Source: a bacterium
Lineage (GTDB): Bacteria > Patescibacteriota > Gracilibacteria > UBA1369 > PNNO01
DNA: 57,730 nucleotides
NCBI GenBank assembly: GCA_021158225.1
Contig: JAGGUZ010000003.1
Coordinates: 1-57,730, forward strand
Direction of reading: 5' to 3'
The notes under the pieces: generated by a model
Told to the model about the DNA's origin: nothing
Databases searched by the model: none
What the model saw: the letters and a program-made list of their open reading frames with translations, nothing else
In this document: positions 52,546 through 57,730 of the stretch, piece after piece
How the letters are laid out: every line of letters begins with the position of its first letter
How positions within the stretch are numbered: the stretch's first letter is position 1
Position numbers and translations under genes: made by a program

Positions 52546-52669
52546 AGACAATGTTTCGCACTATGCAAACTTGCGCAGATGTATAATATGCTGAAGGCAT
52601 ACACCTATGCAAGTTGAGTGAAGATTTTTAGGCTGTGCCGAACCCCGAACCGTATATCTCTTGTTATAC
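52546..52669 (-). repeat. attC-like site E
   Basis: AATGTTTCGC...AAACTTGC/GCAAGTT inner hairpin...GGCTGTGCCGAACCCCGAACCGTATATCTCTTGTTATAC; right arm homologous to site B. Confidence 0.75.
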
Positions 52670-52819
52670 ATCCCGACGACTGAAAGTAGGAGAGCGAAGC
52701 GTGACACAAAACATAGCAGAGTAAGTTCAAAAAATATTTTTCGTTCTTATTCATTTAATAGGCTTTCTTATTTTCTTATAAATTTGATTTTTTCGTTTTT
52801 GGTTATTCGGATTTTAAAC

Positions 52820-53497
52820 CTATCTAACATAATTTTTATAATTTCTAAATTTTAATTTTAACATGATTTTTATAATTTCTATGCTTTGTTTTAATAACAA
52901 ATAAAATCCGTTTTTACGTTTTATAGGTTTATTTGTTTGTCTTAATCCTTTCAAAATTGATTTATAAACTGGTATTTTATTCATTTTACAATAATTATTT
53001 AATACAACTTCTAGTCCGTATCCTTTCATAAGAGGATTATTTCTTACTTTTCTAAAAATAGAATAATGCAATGCCCTTTCCCCTGTGATTAAGGGAAAAA
53101 TATGTTTTGAAAGAAAGTATGTCACTTTACCGTAATCTCTTATGCCCGCCGACATTGCTATTGTTTCATGTTTAAAAGGGACCAATATTTGCTTTATATG
53201 TTTCTCTTTAAAGTTATGTAAATCACCATCACAAAAAAATAGGATTTCTGTTTCTAAATTTATTGTAGCTATTTTTACGGCATCACTTTTCCCTACATTT
53301 TTCTCAAGAGAAATAATTTGCAATTTTTTACAATCAAAAGATTGAACTATACGTAAAGTATTGTCTGTCGAGGCATCGTCTACTACTATAATTTCGTTTA
53401 TTAAATCCGAATTTATTAAAGTTGTCAGAACGTTTGCTATGGTTTTTTCTTCATTAAATGCCGGAAGTATTGCTGTGACTTTCATTTTTTTCTTCAT
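52820..53497 (-). CDS. Glycosyltransferase family 2 (cassette 4, second gene)
   Basis: VTAILPAFNEEKTIANVL...EIIVVDDASTDNT...EILFFCDGDL. Confidence 0.88.
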   Translation of the reverse strand: MKKKMKVTAILPAFNEEKTIANVLTTLINSDLINEIIVVDDASTDNTLRIVQSFDCKKLQIISLEKNVGKSDAVKIATINLETEILFFCDGDLHNFKEKHIKQILVPFKHETIAMSAGIRDYGKVTYFLSKHIFPLITGERALHYSIFRKVRNNPLMKGYGLEVVLNNYCKMNKIPVYKSILKGLRQTNKPIKRKNGFYLLLKQSIEIIKIMLKLKFRNYKNYVR

Positions 53498-54302
53498 TTA
53501 ATAATTTTTTTAGTAAAGGGAGTTTTTTTTGCATTTCTTTTTTCCCTTTTTGATAATAGTCTTCCATTAGCCCAACATTATAAAATTTTAGTATATCTTT
53601 CCAATTATGAAAATCAAATTTTATTTCTTTCAAAGGTTCTAAGATTATATCTGAATCTTTTTTTGTGATTTCTTCTCTTGATTTGATTAATGGAATGTAT
53701 ATTGATCTCCAAACCACACTAAATGGGTTACTATGATAATTTGATGCGGTATAAAAAGAGCCCTCTAATATAGAACTTGTAACAATGTTATTTTTGCCAA
53801 TCTTTTTCCTGCAAACATCCGCCGGAATATTATTTAAAACGCCTCCGTCTACAAAAACATTATTATCAATTGTAACTGCTGGATATATTCCTGGAAATGC
53901 TGAAGAAGCACAAACTGCATCTACTATATTTCCCCTCTCAAAAACATTTAATTCTGCGGTATTTAAATTAGTTGCGACAATAAATAAACTTATTTTGCTA
54001 TTTTCTATAGTTGTTTTAACCAATAACCTTTTAAGTATTTTTTTAATATTAGATTGAGAAATAAAACCATTTTTTGAAATTGCTGGCTTGAACCAGTTTA
54101 ATCTACTTGTTAATTTGAAAAACTCTTTTTTTATATCTTCAATCGGCACTTCATTTGCTATAAGAGCACCAATTATGGAACCCATACTAGAGCTTACAAT
54201 ACAGTTAATAGGAATATTATTATTTTGAAGTACTTCTATTACTCCTAAATGAGCAAAACAGCGCGCTCCCCCTCCACCTAGAACCAACCCAATTTTTTTC
54301 AT
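53454..54302 (-). CDS. Patatin-like phospholipase (cassette 4, first gene)
   Basis: GLVLGGGGARCFAHLGVIEVL; IVSSSMGSIIGAL nucleophile-elbow-like; FVDGGVLNNIP. Confidence 0.9.
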   Translation of the reverse strand: MKKIGLVLGGGGARCFAHLGVIEVLQNNNIPINCIVSSSMGSIIGALIANEVPIEDIKKEFFKLTSRLNWFKPAISKNGFISQSNIKKILKRLLVKTTIENSKISLFIVATNLNTAELNVFERGNIVDAVCASSAFPGIYPAVTIDNNVFVDGGVLNNIPADVCRKKIGKNNIVTSSILEGSFYTASNYHSNPFSVVWRSIYIPLIKSREEITKKDSDIILEPLKEIKFDFHNWKDILKFYNVGLMEDYYQKGKKEMQKKLPLLKKLLNEEKNESHSNTSGI

Positions 54303-54423
54303 CTCGTTTCCATATTAATAATTAAGTTATTGGTATTATATAGGTTTTCTCTTTTAAATAAATCGTTTTCGGAGTGTAGCGGAGAAAAATATTGGAGAGC
54401 GACGGCAGGAGCAAACCGCATAT

Positions 54424-54549
54424 ACTGTGTTGCGTGACTATGAGAAGTTTTGCCACAGTATAATTTGTGCATCAGTATTTACTGTGGCAAAATTTGGGTA
54501 AACGAACATAGCTGAGCAAAGTAAGTAAATCTCATAGTCTTTGTTAACC
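54424..54549 (-). repeat. attC-like site D (degenerate R' core)
   Basis: GACTATGAG (54436-54444)/CTCATAGTC (54531-54539) arms; 13-bp perfect inner stem TTTTGCCACAGTA (54448-54460)/TACTGTGGCAAAA (54480-54492); GTTAACC at 54543. Confidence 0.75.
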
Positions 54550-54565
54550 GATGTTGGGCTGTTTT

Positions 54566-55180
54566 TTAATTGAGCTTAAGTGTTGGTTCAACAACATCAC
54601 GAATTTCTTGACACCCAATTGGTCTGTCCGAGCCATCATTAATTCCTGTTCCGCAGGAATTGACAAAGAGGAGCCAATTATCATTTAGCATTGTAGGATA
54701 AGCGTCTCCGCCGGCATAACATTGGTCAAAGTCCTTTTTAAATTCATCAAGTGAAGAATAACCAGCTTTATTTGGTAGCAAGGTTACGACGAAAGTATCA
54801 GATTCTTGACTGTCACCAGTATACTTGAAGTTATAGACGGTTTTGGTTGCACCGCTGAATTTAGAAACTAGATTATTGAAGTAGTTCTCCGTTTGTTCAT
54901 TGCCACATTCTTGAGCCATTGATACAAGCTGGTCAGCGGTGTAACCAAATGACGTGGTCTTCTTTGAAACAGAGGCGGAGACACCGCTTGTTGAATAAGT
55001 TAGAGGCTCTTTTGGCTCCTCTTTGTTCGCAGTTGTTGTTTCAGTTGTATCAGTAATTACTTCACTGACTTCTTCTTGAACAACCTTGCTTTGTTGCCAC
55101 CAATAAACTCCACCACCGACAACAACTGCGGTGATGATGATGGTAAGGGTAATTACCCACGTGTTGTTTTTTTGCTCCAT
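54566..55180 (-). CDS. Hypothetical N-terminally TM-anchored protein (cassette 3)
   Basis: WVITLTIIITAVVVGGGVYWWQQSK N-terminus. Confidence 0.7.
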   Translation of the reverse strand: MEQKNNTWVITLTIIITAVVVGGGVYWWQQSKVVQEEVSEVITDTTETTTANKEEPKEPLTYSTSGVSASVSKKTTSFGYTADQLVSMAQECGNEQTENYFNNLVSKFSGATKTVYNFKYTGDSQESDTFVVTLLPNKAGYSSLDEFKKDFDQCYAGGDAYPTMLNDNWLLFVNSCGTGINDGSDRPIGCQEIRDVVEPTLKLN

Positions 55181-55245
55181 AGCGATTTATGTTAATGGTT
55201 AAGTGAATTATATTTTAAATAACGGAATAAAACCAGCCCAATTTC

Positions 55246-55366
55246 GCCTAACGTTCCTGCGTATGCGATGTTTGCTGGTGGTATAATATATTGCGAAGCA
55301 ATTTACCGCCAGTGAATATGGGCGGAACGAGCGTAGCAAAGTGTAGCCGCATAGTGCTTGTTAGGC
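55246..55366 (-). repeat. attC site C (121 nt)
   Basis: GCCTAAC (55246-55252)...TATGCG/CGCATA...GTTAGGC (55360-55366); on minus strand GCCTAACAAGC...GGAACGTTAGGC; both R boxes fit RYYYAAC/GTTRRRY. Confidence 0.88.
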
Positions 55367-55402
55367 GATGTGTCCATTGTAAATATCTAAAAAACTTGGC
55401 AT

Positions 55403-56248
55403 TTATTTCTTTTTTTCGCTTACAAAAATATCCTGATATGAAAGACTTTCTTTCCTGTTTGACCAATTCCCGTGGTGAATTTTCAAATTTTCACAACAAT
55501 CAAATTTTCTTAATTGTTCGATAATCCAGTTTTCCATGTATCCGATTTCAGCCTCTGGAACGTTTTTATGTGAATAAAAGGCAAAATTCCCTTCATACGG
55601 ATAAATAAAATTGCAGTTGGAAACGTGTTTGTTGATATTTTCTTGAACCTCTTCGTCTATAGAAAACCATGTCAGAAAACATTTGCCACCAGGTTTTAAA
55701 ACTCTTTTAATCTCTGAAAGATATTGATTAATTTGTTTGGGTAGCATATGCGTAAAAACGGAGGTGGCAAAAATGAAATCAAATTTATTGTTTTTATATG
55801 GAAAGCTGAATTTATCTGCATGAATTTTGCCTTTTTTATTGTAGTACTTATTAAAAATATCAACATATTGGAAGTGAAAATTTGAAAATTTCTTTGAAAT
55901 ATTTTTTTTACACCATTTAATACCTCTTTTATCTATATCAAAGCCATAAAGTTCACCATCTGTTAAATATTTTGTTGAAGGAATGGCGATACGGCCAATG
56001 CCACATCCGATGTCTAAAACAACGTCGTTTGATTTCAAATTGCCTAATTCCTTAAAATATTTAACAAATTCATTCCCGACTTTTTTAAATTCACTACTGC
56101 CGACAAAATTTAGTCTTTTCGGAGGATATCCTTCCATCTGGCTTCCTTTGATATAGAAAATAATATCTTGAGCGAGATAAAAAAGATATTTCAAAGTTTT
56201 TTTCGCAGAAACAGGAAGTATGTATTTTAGCTTTTTTTTGAAATTCAT
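55403..56248 (-). CDS. Class I SAM-dependent methyltransferase (cassette 2)
   Basis: DVVLDIGCGIGRIAIPSTKYL...FDFIFATSVFTHM...YLSEIKRVLKPGGKCFLTWF. Confidence 0.87.
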   Translation of the reverse strand: MNFKKKLKYILPVSAKKTLKYLFYLAQDIIFYIKGSQMEGYPPKRLNFVGSSEFKKVGNEFVKYFKELGNLKSNDVVLDIGCGIGRIAIPSTKYLTDGELYGFDIDKRGIKWCKKNISKKFSNFHFQYVDIFNKYYNKKGKIHADKFSFPYKNNKFDFIFATSVFTHMLPKQINQYLSEIKRVLKPGGKCFLTWFSIDEEVQENINKHVSNCNFIYPYEGNFAFYSHKNVPEAEIGYMENWIIEQLRKFDCCENLKIHHGNWSNRKESLSYQDIFVSEKKK

Positions 56249-56306
56249 GATCGGCTGGTTAAAGAAATAAATGCCAATACCTATTGTAATTTACAATGGA
56301 CATTTC

Positions 56307-56392
56307 GCCTAACGTTTGCGGATATGAGAAGTTACCGAAGGCAATTTGGGCTGAGGCTCTGCAAGAGCCGAACCTCATATCCGCTGTTATGT
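56307..56392 (-). repeat. attC site B (86 nt)
   Basis: GCCTAAC-GTTT-GCGGATATGAG-AA-GTT...AAC-CTCATATCCGC-T-GTTATGT; 11-bp perfect L stem with asymmetric spacers. Confidence 0.88.
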
Positions 56393-56508
56393 GTCCCGAG
56401 TGTAGCGAAGCGAAACGAGAGTGCAACGTGGTCGTAGCGAAGCGGAGAAGTCGTATTTTCATTTATTCAACCTTAAATTATTTTGGGCGTTTCCTTTTTA
56501 GAGCAATT

Positions 56509-57444
56509 TTACTTTTTTACCCTGTTTACATTTTTTAAAAACACTTTTTGGAACTTGGAAGCTGTATTTTCTAACCATTCAAAATATTCATTCCATTTTT
56601 CAGAATCGTTTATGTCTGCTTCAGAGGATATTTTAATTCTACTGGCTTTTTTACCTTCTAAAGCCATCCATTCTAATTTCATATCTAATTCTTGCTCTAT
56701 TTTATCTTCTTGTTTTTCTAATTCATAAAATAGGTCTTTTGAGTTTGGGATATAAACTTCACAAGCGATTTGATTTGATTGGCTATTGATTGTTAAAGAT
56801 ATGTGCGCCTCTGAACTTCCGAAACTTATATCATACCAGTGTTGAGGATATGCTTTTCTTAATCTAAGTTTGGAGTTATTTGATTGAGCATATTCTTTAA
56901 ACTTGTTCCAAAAATCAAGTTGTAATAATTTTGTATCTGTTAAGGCAGATTGACCTGTTGATTTTTTAATAGCTTTTGCCCAATCATTCGGTTTTGAAAT
57001 TATTTGAAATTTTGGTGCAAAAGGAGAGTTCCCAATCTGCCATAATTCCATTTTGATTGCAAAGAAATTGATTTTTTCATCAGTATGTTCATTTAACCAA
57101 TCAATAGCTTGTTTATGTTCATCTCTAACATCTTTAACAATCCAGATAATTATTTCTGCATCGTAGCCAGAAGCATAAGTTATGACTTGTCCTAAATGAG
57201 AATGATCGGTTGTTTCTAATTGATTTTCAATTACTACTTTTCTTCCAGTATTTTCTTCTTCTGCAAGAATATCAACATTAAATTTCCCAACACTTGCTTC
57301 AGTTTGTATTACTTGTAAGCCAATCCCAATCTCATCACTCAAAAGACCTAAATTTTCATCTCTTGCAAGCCAGTTAGTAAAATCCAAAGCTTCGTGCTTC
57401 CAAGCTTTTCTTAAATCAACTTTTTGTAGTTTTCCAAGTTCCAT
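56509..57444 (-). CDS. DUF4268-type protein with N-terminal PD-(D/E)XK-like nuclease fold (cassette 1)
   Basis: ASVGKFNVDILAEEENTGRKVVIENQLETTDHSHLGQVITYASGYDAEIIIWIVKD (D...ExQ motif). Confidence 0.8.
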   Translation of the reverse strand: MELGKLQKVDLRKAWKHEALDFTNWLARDENLGLLSDEIGIGLQVIQTEASVGKFNVDILAEEENTGRKVVIENQLETTDHSHLGQVITYASGYDAEIIIWIVKDVRDEHKQAIDWLNEHTDEKINFFAIKMELWQIGNSPFAPKFQIISKPNDWAKAIKKSTGQSALTDTKLLQLDFWNKFKEYAQSNNSKLRLRKAYPQHWYDISFGSSEAHISLTINSQSNQIACEVYIPNSKDLFYELEKQEDKIEQELDMKLEWMALEGKKASRIKISSEADINDSEKWNEYFEWLENTASKFQKVFLKNVNRVKK

Positions 57445-57552
57445 ATTGTTATTATTAAAAAATGTAAATTATATAAATGTTTTTAAAATTGCTCTTTCAT
57501 TAGTTAAGCCCAAAATAATTTCCTTATCAATTATAAATGAAAATACGATTAC

Positions 57553-57705
57553 ACATAACGTCCACGGCTTTGCGAAGTTTTTACGGTGGTATAATACCAC
57601 GACGTGAGGAGTGGGACTACCGTTAAAAAAACTTGAGAGAGGTGTTTTAGGCCGTGCGAAGCCGGCTGATCAAAAAACACCGAACCGCAAAAGCCGTTGT
57701 TATGC
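57553..57705 (-). repeat. attC site A (about 153 nt) belonging to the next, off-window cassette
   Basis: ACATAAC-GTCC-ACGGCTTTGCG-AA-GTT...GAAC-CGCAAAAGCCGT-T-GTTATGC; one extra base in one arm; inner hairpins AAGTTTTTACGGT/ACCGTTAAAAAAACTT and GGTGTTTT/AAAAAACACC. Confidence 0.85.
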
Positions 57706-57730
57706 GGAGTTGGGGAGTGATGGCTAAGAA

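Follow-up and report, generated by a model that had tools for sequence, protein, structure and literature searches.

The window analysed here, a stretch of 57,730 nt (contig C10) from a 990-kb genome that is 99% complete, contains a cassette array that is read on the minus strand and extends from ~52.5 kb to the right end of the contig. We built a covariance model from the four strong attC sites of the window: attC a (57554–57706, first of the array, with the contig end 24 nt beyond), b (56307–56393), c (55246–55367), and d (54430–54550, the own attC of cassette 3). A genome-wide search with this model returned only five matches, which comprised these four sites and a weak, possibly chimeric attC e (52547–52670) of the same array. 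All five lie on the minus strand, and the identification of attC a and d was also based on their folds. The array matched no relevant family in Rfam, and a megablast search of the array against plasmids gave no match.

The cassettes, all on the minus strand, carry different genes. Cassette 1 (56386–57559) encodes a 311-aa protein assigned to DUF4268 (ORF 56509–57444), cassette 2 (55360–56313) a 281-aa methyltransferase (ORF 55403–56248), and cassette 3 (54543–55252) a 204-aa protein with an N-terminal membrane segment (ORF 54566–55180) that had no match in Pfam. The genes of cassette 4 (52820–54302) encode a patatin-like phospholipase (53454–54302) and a family-2 glycosyltransferase (52820–53497).

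The initial annotation had described a terminal inverted repeat in cassette 3, and its coordinates proved exact: the left end GTTAACCGATGTTGGGCTGTTTTT and the reverse complement of the right end GTTAGGCGAAATTGGGCTGGTTTT match at 19 of 24 positions, forming an imperfect repeat. The repeat includes an asymmetric 2-nt loop (left side AA, 55242–55243, minus strand; right side TG, 54552–54553, plus strand) and an arm, TTGGGCTGGTTTT at the left end (55229–55241, minus strand) and TTGGGCTGTTTTT at the right end (54554–54566, plus strand). Over positions 12–25, 12 of 14 arm positions match (P = 2e-5 vs composition-matched random arms). In cassette 2, a 14-nt arm, TGTCCATTGTAAAT, is identical at both ends (left 56289–56302, minus strand; right 55371–55384, plus strand), and further in lies a second shared arm of 17 nt, TTGGCATTTATTTCTTT (left 56261–56277, minus strand; right 55396–55412, plus strand), which was recognized by inspection and forms the outer stem in the circle fold. 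Cassette 1, previously credited with only 9 nt, has a perfect 16-nt arm TCGTATTTTCATTTAT (57533–57548, minus strand), whose inverted identical copy at the right end (56451–56466, plus strand) is displaced by a 56-nt structured insert between the R box and the arm (56395–56450, plus strand; a type II module, CCCGAG..GAGAGTGCAACGTGG..GAAG). A second arm, AAATTATTTTGGGC, is also present in this cassette (left 57509–57522, minus strand; right 56475–56488, plus strand).

At the right end of cassette 4, a type II insert starting at 52672 precedes the arm TTCAAAAAATATTTTTC (52726–52742, plus strand), a sequence that recurs in cassettes of other genomes. This cassette lacks its left end, since attC d is joined to half of another attC: its R' position is occupied by GCAACAC, directly continuous with the left half of the other site, and in the region 54370–54440 this GCAACAC continues as the half attC ACAGTATATGCGGTTTGCTCC. 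The junction is, as its sequence indicates, a deletion or fusion between attC sites. Decay, to which the weak ends of cassettes 1, 4, and 5 had been attributed, is not supported, and the ends of cassettes 1 and 4 are better explained by the insert and the deletion.

Integrase genes beside the arrays

Contig C11 of the same genome overlaps the right end of the window by exactly 50 nt (window 57681–57730; 5732–5781 in L098) and encodes a tyrosine recombinase that reads away from the array, with its start ~165 nt from attC a. Given this overlap and the adjoining integrase, the array is very probably part of a complete integron that was split by the assembly. A candidate attI, GTTATACGGCAT, is located between the integrase gene and attC a. 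The same layout was found elsewhere: the integrase gene and the nearest attC lie on opposite strands in all 20 loci that have both.

The array-side integrases (about 275–300 aa) align with IntI and have no IntI-specific insertion, leaving a gap of ~40–50 residues in the alignment with the true IntI L078. Against the integron-integrase model TIGR02249, the integrase of this genome scored 195.5 bits in two pieces (cut-off 265), and only one of 98 relatives passed the cut-off; against NF040815, it scored 213.8 bits, just under the cut-off of 220. In the phylogenetic tree, the CPR integrases form one clade (95/93), apart from IntI (100/99) and from the other sampled recombinases lacking the IntI-specific domain (patch III region; hereafter, patch-less), with a weakly supported position relative to IntI. 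Among solved structures, IntI4 (PDB 2a3v) has the most similar sequence. An order-level relative (G032) encodes an integrase identical to that of the Candidatus Peregrinibacteria record MFXJ01000002.1, and the host is therefore probably a member of Patescibacteria close to Peregrinibacteria. One member of the patch-less clade (L079/L100, G025:C73) carries 40–50 additional residues where the insertion of IntI would lie, and these apparently differ from the IntI domain. A true patch-bearing IntI (L078/L099; 460 bits) occurs in the assembly of a relative on a 4.1-kb contig (G055:C21) that is possibly a contaminant.

Cassette-specific arms shared by the two ends of a cassette

Among the relatives, which are represented by genome assemblies of mostly metagenomic origin, the covariance model detected attC sites in 28 of 40, and of 288 genomes from across the phylum, 47 had such sites under a refined model (R2) with stricter scoring. 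Arms were scored at nt 13–52 counted from GTT, outside the region of the site-finding covariance model, and the arm signal was therefore not built in. The arm score was 9.91 for the own two ends of a cassette and 5.89 between ends of different cassettes (n = 100 cassettes; z = 30), and none of 20,000 permutations gave a sum above 650, compared with 991 observed. For replication, an independent set of 72 cassettes was collected afterwards, mostly from other groups of the phylum; the corresponding scores were 8.27 and 6.07 (z = 13.6; 0 of 10,000 permutations). Cassette ends are AT-rich, as expected if coincidence or low complexity had produced the repeats in two cassettes of the window. However, mismatched ends of the same composition scored far lower and no permutation in either set reached the observed sum; the two cases are not coincidental, and this explanation has a negligible probability.

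As a classical control, we analyzed 39 cassettes located beside patch-bearing IntI genes in records of viral contigs, plasmids, and phages. These cassettes were collected using a generic R/L-box finder that misses many CPR attC sites and was used for the classical comparison and not for the main counts. In these cassettes the R boxes match (0.90), whereas the arms do not (5.53 vs 5.08). Because arms are absent beside classical IntI, the extension is not a general property of cassettes. In one IntI array (L199, Thiodictyon plasmid), the ends of a single cassette, GTTGAACTAATCCGCTCC and GTTGGACTAATCCGCTCC, outmatch those of its neighbours; these long-matching ends may belong to a less clear attC there.

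In total, 170 distinct cassettes were compared, and an arm of ~15 nt, specific to each cassette and common to its two ends, extends beyond the R-box pairing. The arm directly follows the 2-nt loop in 86 of the 170 (type I). In another 50 (type II), the right side carries a structured insert with a motif such as CCCGA..GAGAGTGCAACG(G/T)GG..GCG, and a matching arm follows the insert in 34 of these 50, compared with 4% expected. The 16 type II cassettes with no convincing arm after the insert probably include some that are two cassettes with a missed attC and some that have decayed. Neither type is clear in the remaining 34. A second arm was present in about one-quarter of the 120 cassettes tested (z = 23.7), and the stretches between the first and second arms contain small hairpins that often differ on the two sides. 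Right ends that had seemed 'short' were an artefact of the first R'' anchoring and disappeared once the anchoring was corrected. Some left ends (L389, L390, L396, L409, L416, and L417) consist of small palindromes at the core, e.g., GTTATGCAAAATGCGCCGCGCATTTTGCATAAGG, which resemble a different element located at attC sites. At L387, L388, and L404, the base before the crossover is A and not G (ATTACCC, ATTAGGC), and the right ends keep GTT.

The known R-box pairing of cassette ends is GTTRRRYGA. Among type I cassettes, the 61 clearest show the pattern GTT(A/G)NNNGA(A/C)AT-arm at the left end and GTT(A/G)NNNGATGT-arm in the reverse complement of the right end, with a conserved asymmetric loop (AA or CA on the left, TG on the right). 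Position 11 is A at the left end in 60 of 61 cassettes and G at the right end in 53 of 61, and since the two sides differ, it represents a conserved mismatch between two paired stretches. Position 11 would form a G-T wobble on the bottom strand and an A-C mismatch on the top strand, a difference that would favour the bottom strand, on which known integrases act (PMC2727003). A wider wobble count for strand bias gave 10 vs 4 (p = 0.18), and in the predicted folds of cassette 3 the top strand had a slight advantage in stability over the bottom strand (-34.8 vs -30.9).

The initial annotation had proposed conserved pairing between arms whose sequence varies, and suggested a covariation analysis of cassette ends; both the 100-cassette comparison and its 72-cassette replication agree with the proposal. 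We extended the covariation analysis to the arrays of relatives. Relatives of cassette 3 were identified from similar proteins, or from arms and R boxes of the same pattern beside such genes, and L076 was added. These cassettes carry arms such as TTGGGCTGTTTTT, TTGCGCTGATCT, and TTGCGCTAATTTT, and in nine of them four arm pairs are altered on both sides. Compensatory cells numbered 10, compared with 3.8 +/- 1.3 in shuffles (0 of 500 as high), a comparison to which the relatedness of the cassettes applies as a caveat. Controls with slid partners gave at most 3 cells. The count of pairs with two-sided changes is, on its own, not extreme (79 of 500 shuffles).

Such two-sided changes would also be produced if template-switch (quasi-palindrome) correction or gene conversion kept the arms alike with no selection for pairing, and the two ends are close together in the circle. 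Correction should, however, erase the asymmetric loop, whose sides stay unlike amid paired bases (left A in 60/61, right G in 53/61), and classical cassettes show no arms; we therefore regard this process as quite unlikely to be the source of the arms. The arms could also be a relic of cassette birth, e.g., of fold-back copying of a longer palindrome, that slowly decays, and some cassettes do have weak or no arms. Against such an origin, related cassettes have retained their arms, with two-sided changes, despite diverged proteins, and conservation of the asymmetric loop extends to unrelated cassettes, which makes a decaying relic very improbable.

The own-end match also provides a practical marker of exact cassette boundaries, including the integrase-proximal first cassette, where attI should lie. 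Own-end matching predicted a left arm of the first cassette between the integrase gene and the first attC, and this prediction came out: first-cassette starts were located with 14 of 14 arm positions and a matching R box at six loci (L074, L114, L115, L047, L107, and L116), and with 13 of 14 arm positions at L113.

Predicted folding in the free circle and a proposed role for the arms

The attC sites known so far function as single strands in folded form, and their R boxes pair completely only if both ends belong to the same cassette. Folding of in silico circularized cassettes, another check suggested in the initial annotation, showed that the bottom-strand DNA of 98 attC sites folds at -41.9 kcal/mol as a circle compared with -32.1 kcal/mol in the array, and that the circle fold is the more stable of the two in 90 of 98 sites. 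Own arms scored 9.26, whereas the two arms on either side of that attC in the array scored 5.36, which is the background level, showing that arms are not matched to the array neighbour. In classical IntI cassettes, the difference between circle and array folds is only -4.4 kcal/mol (19 sites).

We consider it fairly likely that the arms are an extension of attC that is present only when a cassette's own two ends meet, above all in the excised circle. In the free circle, the site would fold into the attC hairpin, the R-box stem plus GA, the asymmetric loop, and the ~15-nt arm. The loop would consist of 2 nt or, on one side, of a structured module, and about one-quarter of the cassettes tested would add a second arm. 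In the array, attC would be flanked by the non-pairing arms of two different cassettes, and the array site would therefore fold less well. The likely effect is that the folded strand is favoured in the free circle, or that the two ends become paired before excision, and the sequences agree with either role. The arms, their own-end specificity, their covariation, the asymmetric loop, their absence from classical arrays, and the arrangement with the integrase are seen in the sequences themselves; from them we infer folding of the single strand in the cell, use of the folded or paired site by the patch-less integrase, and the direction of the effect: recombination would take place at such sites and integrated sites would stay quieter, with capture favoured and storage stabilized as the outcome. 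Possible roles of the loop or the branched module are to orient the integrase or to determine which strand is used.

The arms may alternatively function in RNA, where the 5' and 3' untranslated arms would close the mRNA or form a terminator/anti-terminator with no role in recombination. Both arms do flank the gene within the cassette, and hairpins occur in the inserts and in the stretches between first and second arms. The spacing between the arms and the recombination core is nevertheless fixed, the arms continue the R-box pairing, and classical IntI cassettes have none, although they too carry genes. A promoter scan of the left ends detected a slight excess of strong sites only. Where a strong promoter-like site was present, in few cassettes, its -10 box falls downstream of the left arm, around nt 72, and the cassette's own transcript would therefore lack this arm. 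Pairing would also have to span 200–2000 nt of translated mRNA. Thus, a function in RNA seems unlikely.

If the attC extension is the correct reading, it offers a structural reason why free cassettes could be reactive and stored ones stable, a long-standing question of integron dynamics. A stronger version, which we put forward tentatively and think possible but doubtful, is that these arrays constitute a separate integron class in which own-end pairing creates a conditional site, the full substrate is present only in the free circle or in the pair of own ends, capture is thus favoured, integrated cassettes are locked, and the arms together with the loop or module replace the role of the missing integrase domain.

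Comparison with known systems

In most described cassettes, pairing continues past the 7-nt boxes to a total of 9–11 consecutive nt (PMC2727003), and an extra domain is the mark of IntI (PMC9668308, PMC9024848). Compared to these features, the present lineage carries an integrase without the domain that is thought necessary for single-strand recombination, and it could be missed by searches that rely on the IntI-specific domain. By the usual criteria, the array of the window would probably be called a CALIN (cluster of attC sites lacking an integrase), because its integrase has no extra domain of the kind used to recognize IntI (PMC9024848). Unlike a CALIN, however, the array is very probably adjoined by an integrase gene, as indicated by the 50-nt overlap with contig C11.

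The score of 213.8 bits against NF040815 (site-specific tyrosine recombinase/integron integrase, XerA type) relates the integrase to XerA/XerC-type recombinases. It differs from these recombinases in being located at cassette arrays and in having IntI4 (2a3v) as its nearest structure. At other patch-less recombinase loci, mainly from Bacteroidota, the candidate cassettes recovered by the generic finder showed no arms. One locus outside Patescibacteria (L195, Flavobacterium UBA7665) has two weak attC matches near a patch-less recombinase, with no arms seen, and it is the only such patch-less locus with attC matches.

Among the open-licence journal papers searched, we found no description of integrons in Patescibacteria or of such arms, and no report of arms behind a conserved loop or of the present integrase group in association with arrays. 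The system looks like a previously undescribed integron variant in uncultured Patescibacteria. It shares with integrons the tandem cassettes, each with a palindromic attC end carrying R''-L''...L'-R' boxes, the complementarity of the R boxes at the two ends of one cassette, and an adjacent, divergent integrase gene (20/20 loci). It differs from them in its integrase, which has no IntI-specific additional domain and belongs to a clade of its own, and in its cassette ends: classical IntI cassettes pair over the 9–11 nt of the R-box region and no further, whereas most cassettes here carry arms, with a loop and then ~15 further paired nt past the R boxes.
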